Shown in pieces: positions 38,491-46,923 of a stretch of DNA of 64,000 nucleotides. The DNA comes from Flavobacterium anhuiense (GTDB lineage: Bacteria > Bacteroidota > Bacteroidia > Flavobacteriales > Flavobacteriaceae), in assembly GCF_004151235.1 (NCBI RefSeq), contig NZ_JUIV01000008.1, positions 62,001-126,000 of the forward strand, written 5' to 3'. The notes beneath the pieces were generated by a model. The model ran no database searches, was not told where the DNA came from, and was given only the letters and a program-made list of their open reading frames with translations. A program made the position numbers and the translations under genes. How positions within the stretch are numbered: position 1 is the first letter of the stretch; each line of letters starts with the position of its first letter.

Positions 38491-38509
38491 TTTTTTTTAA
38501 TTTTATAAA

Positions 38510-39040
38510 ATGGAAATTACATTACGTCAAGAAAATAAAAATGATTTTGAAAGTGTTTTTCAATTAATAGAAAAAGCTTTTGAAAAGGAAGAATATAGCG
38601 ATCATAAAGAACAGTTTTTGGTGGAAAGACTGAGAAATTCTGATGCTTTTATTCCAGAATTGTCTATTGTTGCAGAAATTGATAATGAAATTGTTGGCCA
38701 TATTTTATTTACCAAACTGCAGATAAAAAATGAATCTCAAATCTTTCCGTCATTAGCGCTCGCTCCAGTTTCGGTTTTACCAGAATTTCAAGGAAAAGGA
38801 ATCCGCTCTAAACTTATTTTACAAGGACATGAAATGGCAAAAAGTCTAGGTTATAAATCTGTTATTTTATTAGGACATCAAGATTATTATCCAAGGTTTG
38901 GATATGAACTTTGTGAAAAATTCAATATCAAAATGCCGTTTGATGTTCCAGCTGAAAACTGTATGGTGATAGCGTTAACAGAAGATGGTTTAAAAGATGT
39001 AAATGGAGAAGTGGTTTATCCAAAAGCTTTTTTCGAATAA
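38510..39040 (+). CDS. GNAT N-acetyltransferase
   Basis: A 176-residue single GNAT domain: N-terminal EITLRQENKNDFESVFQLIEKAF, beta-strand HILFTKL, the acetyl-CoA-binding loop SVLPEFQGKGIRSKLILQG (Q/R-x-x-G-x-G/A pattern) and FGYELCEKFNI with the usual C-terminal strand. Length and the RFGYE element fit the YhbS/Eis-like branch. Cytoplasmic; acceptor unknown. Confidence 0.92.
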   Translation: MEITLRQENKNDFESVFQLIEKAFEKEEYSDHKEQFLVERLRNSDAFIPELSIVAEIDNEIVGHILFTKLQIKNESQIFPSLALAPVSVLPEFQGKGIRSKLILQGHEMAKSLGYKSVILLGHQDYYPRFGYELCEKFNIKMPFDVPAENCMVIALTEDGLKDVNGEVVYPKAFFE

Positions 39041-39138
39041 AATTTGAAAAATCATTCTTAGTGCCTTCGTGCCTTTGTGGCAAAACAAAAAAAACTTTGC
39101 ACCTTTGCACCTCAGAACCTCAGTACCTTTAAAAAAAA
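39041..39138. repeat. CTTTG(C)ACCT-type intergenic array
   Basis: GTGCCTTCGTGCCTTTGTGG and TTTGCACCTTTGCACCTCAGAACCTCAG, an approximately 9-10-bp-period repeat upstream of the GreA-like gene. Similar units occur near 3545, 11383, 12222 and 23472. Confidence 0.7.
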
Positions 39139-39588
39139 ATGACTTTCAAAGAAAAAATATATTCTCACTATACTCAAATGGTTCAAGACAGAATTGATGT
39201 TTTTAAAGACATGATTTCAGGCTTGACCGAAGATTCGAAAAACGATGCAAAAGGTTCAGCTGGTGATAAACACGAAACGGCTTTGTCGATGATGCATATT
39301 GAACAAGAAAAACTAACGAATAAATTAAAGGAAGCCCTTGAGCAAAAAGCAATTTTAGATAAAATAGATCCGCTTAAAACGACAGAAAATATTGTTTTAG
39401 GAAGTCTGGTAAAAGCAAACGGAATCTATTTGTATGTAAGTGTTGCACTTCCAAAAATAGCAATTGACGGAATCAATGTCATTGCGCTTTCTCCGCAATC
39501 TCCTTTGGGAAATCATTTAATGGGAAATAAAGCAGGATTTCAATTTGAAATAAATAAGACGCATTATACTATTCAAAGTGTTGAATAA
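39139..39588 (+). CDS. GreA/GreB C-terminal-domain-like protein
   Basis: A 149-residue cytoplasmic protein. The N-terminal 75 residues are helical with GSAGDKHETALSMMHIEQEKL, resembling the GreA coiled coil. The C-terminus reads GSLVKANGIYLYVSVALPKI, then ALSPQSPLGNHLMGNKAGFQFEIN and YTIQSVE, which follows the GreA/GreB C-terminal FKBP-like domain (SPLG..L.GK..GD). It should bind RNA polymerase near the secondary channel. Such genes are often mislabelled as 3-oxoacyl-ACP synthases in Bacteroidota. I see no ketosynthase motif. The acidic tip residues of true Gre factors are not obvious. Confidence 0.75.
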   Translation: MTFKEKIYSHYTQMVQDRIDVFKDMISGLTEDSKNDAKGSAGDKHETALSMMHIEQEKLTNKLKEALEQKAILDKIDPLKTTENIVLGSLVKANGIYLYVSVALPKIAIDGINVIALSPQSPLGNHLMGNKAGFQFEINKTHYTIQSVE

Positions 39589-39991
39589 GTCTTTTTTCAC
39601 TATCAACTTTGACAAAGTTCAATACGTAACCATCTTATCCAATCTTGTCATTCTTCGTTCCTCAGAATGACAAACACTGTGTTCTTGCTTAAAATACAAT
39701 TCCAGCACAACTTTTCTTCTCATCTTTACGAATCTTTCATTTGTAACAGAATAACTCAAAAATTAATTCAAAAAACCGATTTAAAGTTTCAATTTTTAAC
39801 CAGTTTTATAGTCAAAATTAAAATTTTTAAGTTTTGAGCTTATTTTCACTTCTAAATTTTACATTTTATATGTAAAAATCAAATTATGGTTTTAAATTGT
39901 AATTGAAATCGATGTTTGTGTTTTGCAATTGTAACTAATACTCCATCTTTGCCTTGTCAAATTAAAATTTACAAAATAAAAATATAAAATT
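39589..39991. promoter_or_regulatory. Intergenic region upstream of asnB with REP-like palindrome and promoter
   Basis: No gene in 403 bases. It holds the odd palindrome AACTTTGACAAAGTT (39605-39619), a 29-base REP-like inverted repeat TTGTCATTCT/AGAATGACAA (39645-39673), then AT-rich sequence. A promoter is possible: TTG at 39923-39925, 18 bases, then CATCTTTG at 39944-39951 (one mismatch to TAnnTTTG), 40 bases before the asnB start. Confidence 0.5.
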
Positions 39992-41668
39992 ATGTGCGGA
40001 ATTGTATGTGCCTTTGATCTTAAACAAAAAGCCGAAGCTTTAAGACCTCAAGTATTAGAAATGTCAAAAATCATTCGTCATCGTGGACCAGACTGGAGCG
40101 GAATTTTCAGTAATGATAAAGCAATTCTTTCTCACGAGCGTTTGGCAATTGTAGATCCAGCGTCAGGAAAACAACCTTTATTTACAGAAGATAAAAAATT
40201 GGTTTTGGCTGCAAATGGTGAAATCTACAACCACAGAGATCTTCGTAAACAATTTGCTGGTAAATATAACTTTCAAACTGAAAGTGACTGTGAAGTTATT
40301 TTGGCTTTATATAAAGAAAAAGGAGTAAACTTCGTTGATGAATTAAACGGAATCTTCGGATTTGCAATCTACGATGTAGATAAAGACGAGTATTTCGTTG
40401 CTCGTGACCATATGGGAATTATTCCATTGTATATTGGTTGGGATCAGCACGGAACTTTTTATGTGGCTTCTGAATTAAAAGCATTAGAAGGATATTGTAC
40501 AAAAATCGAATTATTTCCTCCAGGACATTATTTGTCAAGTAAAGACGGTGAATTTGTACAATGGTACAAAAGAGACTGGACAGAATATGATGCTGTAAAA
40601 GACAACGAAACAAGTATTCCAGAAATCAGAAAAGCATTGGAAGCTGCAGTTCACAGACAATTAATGAGTGATGTTCCTTACGGAGTTTTACTTTCTGGAG
40701 GTTTAGATTCTTCTATTACTTCGGCTGTGGCTAAGAAATTTGCTCAAAAAAGAATTGAGTCAGATGATACTACAGATGCTTGGTATCCACAATTGCACTC
40801 TTTCTCTGTTGGTTTAGAAGGTTCTCCAGATTTAGCAGCAGCAAGAAAAGTGGCAGATCATATTGGAACTATTCACCACGAAATCAAATTTACGATCCAA
40901 GAAGGATTAGATGCGGTTCGTGATGTAATTTACAACCTTGAAACATATGACGTAACTACAGTTAGAGCTTCGACTCCAATGTGGTTAATGGCGAGAGTGA
41001 TCAAATCTATGGGAATCAAAATGGTTCTTTCAGGTGAAGGTGCAGATGAGCTTTTCGGAGGATATTTATATTTCCACAAAGCACCAAACGCTAAAGAATT
41101 CCACGAGGAAAACGTTCGTAAATTAGGAAAACTTCATATGTACGACTGTTTACGTGCAAACAAAAGTTTAGCAGCTTGGGGAATTGAAGGTCGAGTGCCA
41201 TTTTTAGATAAAGAATTTATGGATGTTGCAATGCGCATTAACCCACAAGATAAAATGATCAACAAAGAACACCCAATGGAAAAATGGGTTGTTCGTAAAG
41301 CCTTCGAAGATATGCTTCCAGAAAGCGTAGCTTGGAGACAAAAAGAACAATTCTCTGATGGAGTAGGATACAGCTGGATTGATACTTTAAAAGAAGTGGT
41401 AGCTAGAGAAGTTTCAGATGAGCAATTGGCAAACGCGAGATTTAAATTCCCATTGCAAACACCAACTTCAAAAGAAGAATACTACTACCGTTCAATTTTT
41501 ACAGAACATTTCCCAAGTGATGCAGCGGCATTATGTGTGCCTCAGGAAGCAAGTGTGGCTTGTAGTACAAAAATTGCTTTGGAGTGGGATGAAGCTTTCA
41601 AAAACTTAAACGATCCATCAGGAAGAGCAGTAGCAAATGTTCATGATGATGCTTACGTTAAAGCGTAA
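39992..41668 (+). CDS. asnB: Asparagine synthetase B, glutamine-hydrolysing
   Basis: A 558-residue enzyme converting aspartate to asparagine with ATP and glutamine amide nitrogen. The N-terminal class II glutaminase domain is complete: Cys2 nucleophile (MCGI), RHRGP with Arg31, Arg50 (HERLAI), the oxyanion Asn75 in NGEIYN and ESDCE. The C-terminal synthetase has the PP-loop LLSGGLDSSI and LSGEGADELFGGY. The C-terminal WRQKEQFSDGVGYSWID stretch is shared with the second copy downstream. Its own terminator separates the two genes, so they need not be co-expressed. Confidence 0.96.
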   Translation: MCGIVCAFDLKQKAEALRPQVLEMSKIIRHRGPDWSGIFSNDKAILSHERLAIVDPASGKQPLFTEDKKLVLAANGEIYNHRDLRKQFAGKYNFQTESDCEVILALYKEKGVNFVDELNGIFGFAIYDVDKDEYFVARDHMGIIPLYIGWDQHGTFYVASELKALEGYCTKIELFPPGHYLSSKDGEFVQWYKRDWTEYDAVKDNETSIPEIRKALEAAVHRQLMSDVPYGVLLSGGLDSSITSAVAKKFAQKRIESDDTTDAWYPQLHSFSVGLEGSPDLAAARKVADHIGTIHHEIKFTIQEGLDAVRDVIYNLETYDVTTVRASTPMWLMARVIKSMGIKMVLSGEGADELFGGYLYFHKAPNAKEFHEENVRKLGKLHMYDCLRANKSLAAWGIEGRVPFLDKEFMDVAMRINPQDKMINKEHPMEKWVVRKAFEDMLPESVAWRQKEQFSDGVGYSWIDTLKEVVAREVSDEQLANARFKFPLQTPTSKEEYYYRSIFTEHFPSDAAALCVPQEASVACSTKIALEWDEAFKNLNDPSGRAVANVHDDAYVKA

Positions 41669-41980
41669 TTAAGAGTTTAATTTTTAGAATTAGTATATAT
41701 ATTGCGGAAAAACGTTCTCTTGTGAGAGCGTTTTTTTGTCTTAACTGTTAAATTAAATAATTAAGACCTCTCTAAAATCTGTTATTTGTAATTATTTAAC
41801 TTTCTTTTAATATATTTGAAACCCCATAAAAAAAACGTTAAATGCTATTGTGTTTTAAGAATTTAATAGCAGAAAGCAAAAATTAATATTTAGTTTTGCT
41901 TTGTATGAAAAATTTTAATGATTTTTTAATGTTCAGTTAGCCTAAAAACTGAATATAAAATAAATAAAAATAGAAGTATT
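41669..41980. promoter_or_regulatory. Spacer between the two asparagine synthetases, with promoter
   Basis: 312 bases without a gene: the asnB terminator, then TTG at 41786-41788 and TATATTTG at 41811-41818 (22-base gap), a plausible flavobacterial promoter. That would leave a 5' leader of about 155 bases before the second gene. No riboswitch-like structure recognised in it. Confidence 0.55.
41705..41738 (+). terminator. Rho-independent terminator of asnB
   Basis: AAAAACGTTCTC-TTGT-GAGAGCGTTTTTTT hairpin with a T run, 37 bases after the stop. Confidence 0.85.
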
Positions 41981-43594
41981 ATGTCTGGATTATTGGCCGT
42001 AATTGGAAAAGGAAAAGACCCGAAACTTGTAAAAGAACTTTCAGAAAGAATGTCTCATCGTGGTCCTGATGAAAGTGATGTTCATATTATGGAAAATGGC
42101 AGTGTTCTTTGTCATGAAAGTTTATCAATTATTGATCTTAATTCGGGAAGACAGCCAATCCAAGGAACTAATAAAGCTTGGATGGTGCATGATGGAGAGA
42201 TCTATAATTATCAAGAACTTAAAAATACAGTTTTAAAGGATCATACTTTTAGAACAGAATCAGATTCGGAAGTAATTGTACATCTGTATGAAGAGTTTGG
42301 ATATGATTTTTGCAATAAACTAGATGGAGATTTTGCTTTTGTGGTTATTGACGGAGATAAATATATTGCTGGCCGTGATCCGATTGGGGTAAAACCTTTG
42401 TATTATGGTTTGGATGAAAGAGGACGAATTTATTTTGCGTCAGAAATGAAATCTATTGCAGACCAATGCAAATCGTTTTCTACTTTTCCTCCAGGACATT
42501 ATTATACAGCAAAAACAGGTTTTGTAAAATACTATCGTCCAGAATACGAAGACCATAAAAATGCAACTCAGCCACTAGATTTAGAGTTAATTCGCGAAAG
42601 CTTAATTCAGGCAACGCGCAAACGTTTATTGGCAGAAGTGCCATTAGGAGTTGTGTTGTCGGGAGGTTTGGATACTTCTCTGATTTCAGCAATTACGTCA
42701 AGATTATTAAAAGGAAAAGGCGAAAAACTGCATTCTTTTTCTATCGGATTGGATGCAGATGCTCCAGATAATGTTGCAGCAAGAAAAGCAGCTGAGTTTT
42801 TAGGAACTGAACATCACGAAATTCATTTTTCTGTAGAAGAAGGAGTTAAGGTGTTGGAGAAAGTGATTTATCATATTGAAACTTATGATATTATTTCGGT
42901 TAGATCTGGTGTGCCAATGTATTTGCTTTCTAAAGCTATCGCTGATCAAGGTATAAAAGTAATCTTGTCTGGCGAGGGAGCTGATGAGGTTTTTGGAGGA
43001 CATTTGTATTTTAGAAATGCGCCTTCAGAAGAAGAATTTCAGGATGAAACGATAGAACGAGTACAGAAGCTTTTTACAGCCGATTTGCTACGTGCAGATA
43101 AAACGACAATGGCAAATGGTCTAGAAGTGCGAATTCCGTTTTTGGATACCGAATTTTTAGATGTTGCGATTCGAATTAAAACAGAAGAAAAACAGCCTAA
43201 AACCTATGATGGCGTTGAAAAATATATTTTAAGAAAAGCTTTTGATACAGAAGATCCTTATTTGCCTTCAGAAGTTTTATGGCGTCAGAAAGAGCAATTT
43301 TCTGATGGTGTAGGATATAGTTGGGTTGACGAATTAATCGAATATTGCGCTTCGCAGGTCACAGATGAGCAATTGGCGGGAGCAAGTGTTGAGTTTCCGT
43401 ACAATTCGCCAACGACTAAAGAAGCGTATTTATACAGATCGATTTTCCATAAATTCTATCCGCAGGTCAGTGCAGCGCAAACTGTTCGAAAATGGATACC
43501 AAAATGGCAGGAAAATCTCGATCCAAGCGGAAGGGCAAATGCTGCACACTTAAATGGTAATTTTGAAACTGTAAAAACTACTGTTATTGCCTAA
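41981..43594 (+). CDS. Asparagine-synthetase paralogue lacking the glutaminase nucleophile
   Basis: A 537-residue paralogue of the upstream AsnB with the same two-domain layout. Position 2 is Ser (TCT) instead of Cys. The arginine that holds the glutamine carboxylate is Ser47 (HESLSI) and the oxyanion asparagine is Asp71 (HDGEIYN). RHRGP-type Arg27 and ESDSE remain. The synthetase half looks intact: LSGGLDTSLI (Thr for the second Ser of the PP-loop), LSGEGADEVFGGH and WRQKEQFSDGVGYSW. It should therefore use free ammonia, or act with AsnB or on another substrate. The frame is clean throughout, so it is not decaying. Confidence 0.93.
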   Translation: MSGLLAVIGKGKDPKLVKELSERMSHRGPDESDVHIMENGSVLCHESLSIIDLNSGRQPIQGTNKAWMVHDGEIYNYQELKNTVLKDHTFRTESDSEVIVHLYEEFGYDFCNKLDGDFAFVVIDGDKYIAGRDPIGVKPLYYGLDERGRIYFASEMKSIADQCKSFSTFPPGHYYTAKTGFVKYYRPEYEDHKNATQPLDLELIRESLIQATRKRLLAEVPLGVVLSGGLDTSLISAITSRLLKGKGEKLHSFSIGLDADAPDNVAARKAAEFLGTEHHEIHFSVEEGVKVLEKVIYHIETYDIISVRSGVPMYLLSKAIADQGIKVILSGEGADEVFGGHLYFRNAPSEEEFQDETIERVQKLFTADLLRADKTTMANGLEVRIPFLDTEFLDVAIRIKTEEKQPKTYDGVEKYILRKAFDTEDPYLPSEVLWRQKEQFSDGVGYSWVDELIEYCASQVTDEQLAGASVEFPYNSPTTKEAYLYRSIFHKFYPQVSAAQTVRKWIPKWQENLDPSGRANAAHLNGNFETVKTTVIA

Positions 43595-45877
<2,283 letters not shown>

Positions 45878-45897
45878 AATGAAAAATTAATAATTTC

Positions 45898-45950
45898 AAT
45901 TCGTTTAATTGTTTAAATTTACTAGACAATTAAACGAATTGTCTTTTTAG
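45898..45950 (+). terminator. Rho-independent terminator of gyrB
   Basis: Perfect 15-bp arms AATTCGTTTAATTGT and ACAATTAAACGAATT with a 14-base loop, followed by GTCTTTTT. Confidence 0.8.
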
Positions 45951-45987
45951 AGAATAGACATAATTAATAACCGATAAAGTAAAAAAT

Positions 45988-46923
45988 ATGAAAGTTACCA
46001 TTGTAGGAGCAGGAAATGTTGGAGCTACCTGTGCAGATGTCATTTCTTATAGAGGAATTGCAAGCGAAGTAGTATTGTTGGATATTAAAGAAGGTTTTGC
46101 AGAGGGGAAGGCGCTGGATATTACACAATGTGCCACAAACACAGGTTTTAATACCAGAGTTTCGGGAGTTACCAACGATTATTCTAAAACCGCGGGAAGC
46201 GATGTAGTAGTAATTACATCAGGAATTCCGAGAAAACCAGGAATGACAAGAGAAGAATTAATAGGTATTAATGCAGGGATTGTAAAAACAGTTGCTGAAA
46301 ATGTCCTGAAATATTCTCCTAATACTATAATTGTCGTAGTTTCCAATCCGATGGATACGATGACGTATTTAGCTTTAAAAGCTACAGGTCTTCCAAAAAA
46401 CAGAATAATAGGAATGGGTGGTGCTTTAGATAGTTCTCGTTTTAGAACTTACCTTTCATTAGCTCTAGATAAACCGGCAAACGATATTTCGGCAATGGTA
46501 ATTGGAGGTCATGGAGATACCACTATGATTCCGTTAACGCGTTTAGCTTCTTATAATGGAATTCCAGTATCGCAGTTCCTTCCAGAAGAAGTATTGCAGA
46601 AAGTTGCAGCAGATACAATGGTAGGAGGTGCAACTCTTACAGGACTTCTAGGGACTTCAGCTTGGTATGCACCAGGGGCTTCTGTGGCTTACTTAGTAGA
46701 TAGTATTTTGAACGATCAGAAAAAAATGATTGCATGTTCTGTTTTTGTAGAAGGAGAATATGGGCAGAATGATATTTGTATAGGCGTGCCATGTATAATT
46801 GGTAAAAATGGTGTAGAAGAAATTCTGGATATAAACTTAAACGATCAGGAAAAGGCGTTATTTGCTAAAAGTGCAGATGCAGTTCGTAGTATGAATGATG
46901 CTCTAAAAACGATTTTAGTATAA
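45988..46923 (+). CDS. mdh: Malate dehydrogenase (LDH-like type)
   Basis: A 311-residue NAD-dependent malate dehydrogenase of the TCA cycle. Nucleotide-binding GAGNVGATCA at the N-terminus, Asp ending the second strand (LLDIKEG), the substrate loop SGIPRKPGMTREEL with arginines, VSNPMDTMTYL, the third substrate arginine in DSSRFRTYL, and the catalytic histidine in IGGHGDTTM. Starts 110 bases after gyrB with its own upstream terminator in between. Confidence 0.97.
   Translation: MKVTIVGAGNVGATCADVISYRGIASEVVLLDIKEGFAEGKALDITQCATNTGFNTRVSGVTNDYSKTAGSDVVVITSGIPRKPGMTREELIGINAGIVKTVAENVLKYSPNTIIVVVSNPMDTMTYLALKATGLPKNRIIGMGGALDSSRFRTYLSLALDKPANDISAMVIGGHGDTTMIPLTRLASYNGIPVSQFLPEEVLQKVAADTMVGGATLTGLLGTSAWYAPGASVAYLVDSILNDQKKMIACSVFVEGEYGQNDICIGVPCIIGKNGVEEILDINLNDQEKALFAKSADAVRSMNDALKTILV

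Follow-up and report, generated by a model that had tools for sequence, protein, structure and literature searches.

The window, a stretch of 64,000 nucleotides from one contig of Flavobacterium anhuiense, contains two neighbouring genes of the asparagine synthetase B (AsnB) type. The product of the second, AsnB2, has serine in place of the nucleophilic cysteine of the glutaminase domain. The genes and the elements between them are as follows.

39992-41668, forward strand: AsnB1, a glutamine-dependent asparagine synthetase of 558 amino acids with complete glutaminase residues (NF006949, 947.8 bits against a cut-off of 499)
41708-41737, forward strand: terminator-like hairpin and U tract after AsnB1 (fold of 41700-41742 at -20.4 kcal/mol and z -6.58, with none of 200 shuffles folding as well)
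41811-41818, forward strand: TATATTTG, matching the -7 promoter element TAnnTTTG (68 of the 75 clade members for which 330 bp or more of upstream sequence was available)
41981-43594, forward strand: AsnB2, a Cys-less AsnB paralogue of 537 amino acids with an ATG start and an uninterrupted frame

AsnB2 begins 312 bp downstream of the end of AsnB1 and is followed by genes that, read by eye, are gyrB, mdh and secDF; the neighbours read include no natural-product cluster. It matches NF006949 along the length of the protein (688.1 bits, cut-off 499) and TIGR01536 (435.4 bits, cut-off 267.1), aligns with E. coli AsnB (1ct9) at an E value of 1.4e-141, and among Pfam families matches only PF00733, GATase_7, GATase_6 and DUF3700, with no match to PF03590 (AsnA). 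That a protein without the glutaminase cysteine passes curated cut-offs for glutamine-hydrolysing asparagine synthase is a warning for annotation. The genome (5.3 Mb, 43 contigs) has these two AsnB genes and, on another contig, a third, weak match to PF00733 (22.3 bits, cut-off 21). Profile searches found neither AsnA (PF03590) nor GatB (PF02934) in it, so that AsnB1 would be the remaining route to asparagine, among those tested, if AsnB2 makes none. An AlphaFold2 model of AsnB2, built from 36 window and locus sequences, had a mean pLDDT of 60.9, with residues 1-139 below 50, and supports no claim made here.

The hairpin and the -7-like element between the genes suggest that AsnB1 and AsnB2 are likely to be transcribed separately. 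By eye, a similar hairpin is present in 18 aligned intergenic sequences. The element TATATTTG, which fits what we take to be the Bacteroidota -7 consensus (TAnnTTTG), lies 61-174 bp upstream of the AsnB2 start in 68 of 75 clade loci and is missing in seven; it occurs in none of four loci with an intact AsnB2 and in 5.6% of 1580 mononucleotide shuffles. Only 9 of the 75 match a two-part promoter pattern in which the -7-like sequence is combined with an upstream element. The gap between the genes measures 161-325 bp in 76 of 77 two-gene loci (76 named loci and the window) and 1995 bp in the other. An inverted repeat, TTCAGTT...AACTGAA, lies at about 41929-41956, just ahead of the start of AsnB2 (z -2.62 for the fold of 41920-41985); by eye it is not general among the 18 aligned intergenic sequences. 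An Rfam search of 38500-46500 returned a single match, to mir-290, in AT-rich DNA upstream of AsnB1 (39872-39926); at 26.3 bits against a threshold of 51, it was judged to be chance.

Cysteine-less AsnB2 in Flavobacterium

In a survey of 398 Flavobacterium genomes, 287 gave a match at E <= 1e-120, and 111 gave none at that threshold. We examined 122 AsnB2 proteins, three duplicate loci having been excluded: 78, counting the window's own, at about 80% identity or more, and 44 of lower identity, of which 43 come from the genus, where more exist, and one (L023) from another family. Cys2 is missing from all 78 close proteins, with Ser in 72 and Gly in 6, and retained in all 44 others. In the protein tree (FastTree) the 78 group together as a single clade with local support 0.971, and the genomes that carry them represent as many species. 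Eighty named genome loci divide into 69 that begin MSG, 6 MGG and 5 MCG; four of the last are of the intact type, and one, from F. ajazii (L216), has the changed synthetase pocket of the clade described below. Members reading MSG include F. anhuiense, F. hibernum, F. saccharophilum, F. pectinovorum and F. tructae, which we take to be relatives of F. johnsoniae.

Among 397 genomes of the family, AsnB2 was found at E <= 1e-200 in 13, from nine other genera, and all were of the intact type. These proteins and those of other Flavobacterium are orthologues by sequence, at about 61-79% identity, and unlike the window's AsnB2 they have Cys2, HER and HNGE[IV]YN in 44 of 44 and 13 of 13; Thr305 is present in 43 of 44 and 13 of 13 and Tyr341 in all, where the window's protein has Ile305 and His341. 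Plasmid homologues are all less than 60% identical. Orthologues that keep the cysteine, which the earlier note had named as grounds for refuting its reading, are the rule outside the clade (44 of 44 examined) and are represented inside it by F. ajazii, but they do not occur among the 78 close AsnB2.

Substitutions in the two active sites

Residue equivalences were taken from alignment to 1ct9 (E. coli AsnB) and 6gq3 (human asparagine synthetase, ASNS), with human numbers counted from Cys-1. The features of the N-terminal half are the following.

41981-42550, forward strand: glutaminase-like (GAT, Ntn) domain, residues 1-190, without the catalytic residues yet conserved (GATase_7 125.5 bits, GATase_6 102.1 bits; omega 0.031)
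41984-41986, forward strand: Ser2 codon, nucleophile Cys in active AsnB (all 72 Ser-type members use TCT, the other 6 a Gly codon)
42119-42121, forward strand: Ser47 codon, Arg49 in E. coli AsnB and Arg-48, a glutamine-site residue, in the human enzyme (Ser in 71, Gly in 1 and Arg in 6 of 78)
42191-42193, forward strand: Asp71 codon, Asn74 in E. coli AsnB (Asp in 72 and Asn in 6 of 78)

AsnB2 reads MSG, CHESLSI and HDGEIYN where AsnB1 reads MCG, SHERLAI and ANGEIYN, and all 55 aligned AsnB1 keep Cys2 together with the Arg and Asn. Comparison with AsnB1, 1ct9 and 6gq3 bears out the earlier note in its report of Ser2, Ser47 and Asp71 in place of Cys, Arg and Asn within a clean frame, and the three are conserved among the close orthologues (72, 71 and 72 of 78). 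Nucleophile Cys, Arg49 and Asn74, which mark the glutamine-dependent AsnB proteins, are all absent from the window's AsnB2; the accessible text of PMC6748925 counts human Arg-48 and Asn-74 among the residues of the glutamine site. His77, invariant in the intact sets, is Tyr in 71 of 78. The six Gly-type proteins retain Arg47 and Asn71 but have altered Pro29 and His45.

The C-terminal half has four features of interest.

42551-43594, forward strand: synthetase (ATP-pyrophosphatase) domain, residues 191-537 (Pfam Asn_synthase; SGGLD, SGEGAD, D368 and R371 in 78 of 78)
42893-42895, forward strand: Ile305 codon, where active enzymes have Thr (human Thr-336); Ile in 78 of 78 Cys-less AsnB2
42905-42913, forward strand: Ser309-Gly310-Val311, Ala-Ser-Thr in AsnB1 and E. 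coli AsnB and Ala-Ser-Val in the human enzyme
43001-43003, forward strand: His341 codon, where active enzymes have an invariant Tyr (human Tyr-373); His in 78 of 78 Cys-less AsnB2

All but one of the 44 intact AsnB2 have Thr at position 305 (L139 has Ile), as do 55 of 55 AsnB1, and position 341 is Tyr in all 44 and all 55. The claim that the synthetase domain stays intact has to be abandoned, as Thr305 to Ile and Tyr341 to His are fixed in all 78 and are accompanied by A309S (55 of 78), S310G (61 of 78) and T311V (78 of 78); Val311 is also found in 3 of the 44 intact AsnB2 and in human ASNS. The related idea of three residues lost and the rest kept is right about the three and wrong about the rest, since Tyr341His, Val270Ala, His77Tyr and Thr305Ile have changed too, Val270 being invariant in the intact sets and Ala in 77 of 78. 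What is kept is the machinery for ATP. AsnB2 has the ATP-pyrophosphatase loop and catalytic residues of the AsnB family (SGGLD, SGEG.DE, Asp384, Arg387, Lys449) and lacks the synthetase-site Thr (human 336) and Tyr (human 373). Glu332 is retained in all 78, all 36 rows aligned for the purpose have Glu336 and Lys437, and at position 232 there is Ser in 47 proteins and Thr in 31.

The Thr305 to Ile substitution is the identical change, at the aligned position, to the asparagine synthetase deficiency variant T336I of human ASNS, presumably the T337I of Met numbering. In the accessible text of PMC6748925, Thr-336 is located at the surface of the synthetase active site and T336I nearly abolishes glutamine-dependent activity, the only activity reported, as measured in human ASNS only. 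The same text states that no ASNS disease residue seems to be adjacent to Asp or ATP, so that the effect of T336I may be indirect. The human variant sits in an otherwise active enzyme, whereas Ile305 is fixed in 78 genomes together with the Tyr to His change and the other changes of the pocket; a human disease substitution is the norm in these genomes, which amount to a natural experiment on that position. Tyr373, Ala340 and Ser262 are among the ATP contacts that docking alone gives in the available part of PMC11296641. Three human ammonia-tunnel positions named in the accessible text of PMC11615228, Leu-255, Met-344 and Ala-404, align to positions 225, 313 and 372 of AsnB2. The intact sets and the E. 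coli and human proteins show no variation at any of the three, but the 78 Cys-less AsnB2 do (225: Leu 39, Val 25, Ile 14; 313: Met 72, Leu 3, Thr 3; 372: Ala 65, Val 13); the tunnel positions Ser-362 and Glu-364 are retained.

The F. ajazii protein (L216, 5001-6608) has Ile305 and His341 with Cys2, Arg47 and Asn71, as well as Pro29Gly and His45Asn, and may be either an intermediate or a revertant. In L139 (genome G044), an AsnB2 with intact Cys has undergone an apparently independent Thr305 to Ile change, and this genome has AsnB1. Cysteine together with a changed pocket in F. ajazii, and together with T305I in L139, gives a hint that the pocket may have changed before the cysteine was lost. 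The Gly type is nested within the Ser type in the AsnB2 protein tree and lies outside it in the DNA tree, and an AU test on AsnB2 DNA made no decision between these placements (p 0.33). Combined gyrB and AsnB1 data reject a single Ser clade (p 0.002) and place the Gly/Cys group inside the Ser species; these tests used 34 of the 66 Ser rows of the DNA tree and 10 others. The group may have arisen by reversion, by recombination or through two losses.

Constraint and co-occurrence with AsnB1

Both domains of AsnB2 are under purifying selection. A GY codon model was fitted to sets of 18 sequences each, sampled from 66 Ser-type and 37 intact AsnB2 and, for AsnB1, taken from the same 18 loci; omega for the GAT and synthetase domains was 0.031 and 0.043 in Ser-type AsnB2, 0.039 and 0.038 in intact AsnB2, and 0.015 and 0.013 in AsnB1. 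Mean pairwise protein difference in the two domains was 0.1035 and 0.1706 among the 72 Ser-type proteins, against 0.1543 and 0.1575 among the 44 with Cys, and mean column entropy was 0.278 and 0.423 (72 Ser) against 0.315 and 0.296 (37 Cys). All three measures make the disabled glutaminase domain the more constrained half of AsnB2, and the extra variation of the synthetase domain peaks at residues 201-240, near the PP loop. AsnB2 does not look like a pseudogene, with full-length frames in 78 of 78 and omega at 0.031 and 0.043 rather than near 1. The view that its changes reflect selection and not decay, put forward from the sequence at the outset, is upheld by this constraint and by the conservation of the substitutions in close orthologues.

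A second AsnB-type match, AsnB1, is present in 77 of the 78 genomes with Cys-less AsnB2, the sole exception, G406, being 81% complete and in 1050 contigs; in 75 of 78 an AsnB1-like open reading frame lies within the fetched locus. No Cys-less AsnB2 without a second AsnB was found in any of the 78 genomes that is more than 81% complete. AsnB1 accompanies intact AsnB2 in 24 of 44 and is missing in 20, several of these genomes being only 82-93% complete, so that the intact form can apparently stand alone. The difference between 77 of 78 and 24 of 44 has a Fisher p of 6.8e-10 with species treated as independent and several genomes incomplete. More departures at conserved sites might be expected in intact-Cys AsnB2 when the same genome also has AsnB1, but they were not found: the means were 0.96 with AsnB1 and 2.65 alone, of 210 sites (p 0.052), the opposite direction, in a comparison that includes the most distant row, L023, from another family. 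One AsnB2 with Cys2 beside AsnB1 (L142, genome G017) has Asp231 of the PP loop changed to Gly (SGGLGSS) and possibly combines a dead synthetase with a live glutaminase.

Possible functions of AsnB2

Loss of the glutaminase centre in descendants of AsnB is a known kind of event, and most of the glutaminase-dead relatives known come from antibiotic and peptide clusters. In the present case the setting is a housekeeping one, and a protein that shares up to 79% identity with intact AsnB2 has lost that centre in many close species. We favour new chemistry over either a regulatory pseudoenzyme or an ammonia-dependent synthetase, and tentatively read AsnB2 as a repurposed, ATP-using enzyme derived from AsnB that would no longer carry out glutamine-dependent asparagine synthesis, a reading whose probability falls somewhat short of even. 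It draws on the loss of Cys and the presence of Ile305 and His341 in 78 of 78, the retained ATP-pyrophosphatase residues and the constraint on both domains; on the second AsnB in 77 of 78, the variability at the human tunnel positions and the lack of AsnA and GatB in the F. anhuiense genome; and on the effect of human T336I and the hairpin and -7-like element between the genes. The change in a second active site makes it likely that the function of AsnB2 has been altered.

Such an enzyme would still bind ATP and would probably adenylate a carboxylate, acting with a reshaped pocket and without channelled ammonia. It might join an acid other than aspartate, a nucleophile from solution, or both, as beta-lactam synthetase does, and the dead glutaminase domain would persist as a structural, dimerising or ligand-sensing half, with AsnB1 next door supplying the asparagine of the cell. 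The fuller version, a new ATP-dependent ligase in which a non-aspartate acid is adenylated, the nucleophile is something other than channelled ammonia, and the glutaminase domain now senses a ligand or dimerises, is a serious possibility but clearly the less probable claim; if true, an ATP-dependent ligase activity would have arisen from asparagine synthetase at a Flavobacterium housekeeping locus. With intact relatives at hand, the route from amidotransferase to another enzyme can be tested through a handful of residues.

Against E. coli AsnB and PRK09431 (NF006949, TIGR01536), of class II, AsnB2 has full-length homology, both domains and the ATP-pyrophosphatase motifs in common, but is without the nucleophile Cys, Arg49 and Asn74 and has Ile and His for the synthetase-site Thr and Tyr. 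Beta-lactam and carbapenam synthetases are AsnB descendants with a non-working glutaminase centre and ATP-dependent acid activation, in which Tyr replaces the SGEG glutamate. AsnB2 matches both by sequence (1jgt, E 2.1e-14; 1q15, E 2.5e-13) but is not one of them, having Glu332 rather than Tyr in 78 of 78. Nor does it belong to the lasso peptide isopeptide cyclases (NF033535, 135.6 bits against a cut-off of 525).

Several observations weigh against a repurposed enzyme. No substrate, partner gene or pathway indicates a new reaction, the neighbours read by eye being gyrB, mdh and secDF, and the kept ATP residues would also suit an ammonia-dependent synthetase or an ATP-sensing regulator. F. ajazii has the same pocket changes with Cys, and the six Gly-type members retain Arg47 and Asn71. 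The effect of T336I is known for human ASNS, and for its glutamine-dependent activity only, at a residue that, in the accessible text cited above, is seemingly not adjacent to Asp or ATP.

AsnB2 could instead be a regulatory pseudoenzyme without turnover, which pairs with AsnB1 through its GAT domain, or binds glutamine or ATP, and so tunes asparagine synthesis. We consider this unlikely, though it would accommodate the second AsnB-type match in 77 of 78 genomes and the lower divergence of the GAT domain than of the synthetase domain in the 72 Ser-type proteins, the two being about equal in the 44 intact ones. In the available part of PMC11615228, human ASNS dimerises through its N-terminal domains, and bacterial AS-B pairs head-to-tail. 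A pure scaffold, however, would have no need of the ATP-site residues, which are strictly conserved, and the hairpin and -7-like element suggest that the two genes are separately transcribed.

AsnB enzymes without the glutaminase Cys keep ammonia-dependent activity, and AsnB2, with its ATP and adenylation residues in place, might likewise make asparagine from free NH3 when ammonia is plentiful. The fixed changes of the synthetase site and the effect of human T336I, which almost abolishes glutamine-dependent activity (accessible text of PMC6748925), make a simple ammonia-dependent asparagine synthetase less likely, and the Cys-less form occurs alone in 1 of 78 genomes (81% complete), against 20 of 44 intact AsnB2 without AsnB1. 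We regard this explanation as less probable still than the pseudoenzyme.

Serine nucleophiles occur in Ntn hydrolases, and the presence of Ser2 in 72 of 72 main-type proteins and a GAT omega of 0.031 could suit an altered hydrolase that attacks another amide, but six members have Gly2 and so no nucleophile, and the 72 Ser-type proteins have Asp in place of the conserved glutamine-site Asn, which leaves this very improbable. Slow decay of a redundant copy without selected function, an equally slim prospect, might appeal to the many genomes of the genus with an AsnB1-type match only, among the matches listed, and to the PP-loop and T305I changes in the intact-Cys AsnB2 of L142 and L139, but it is largely refuted by full-length open frames in 78 of 78, omega values of 0.031 and 0.043 and the conservation of the replacement residues themselves.

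Literature searches found no earlier report of a Cys-less Flavobacterium AsnB2, and the accessible part of PMC7662799 treats another genus only. An 'asnB' of F. johnsoniae, its copy left unspecified in the available text of PMC9239112, is induced by koreenceine.
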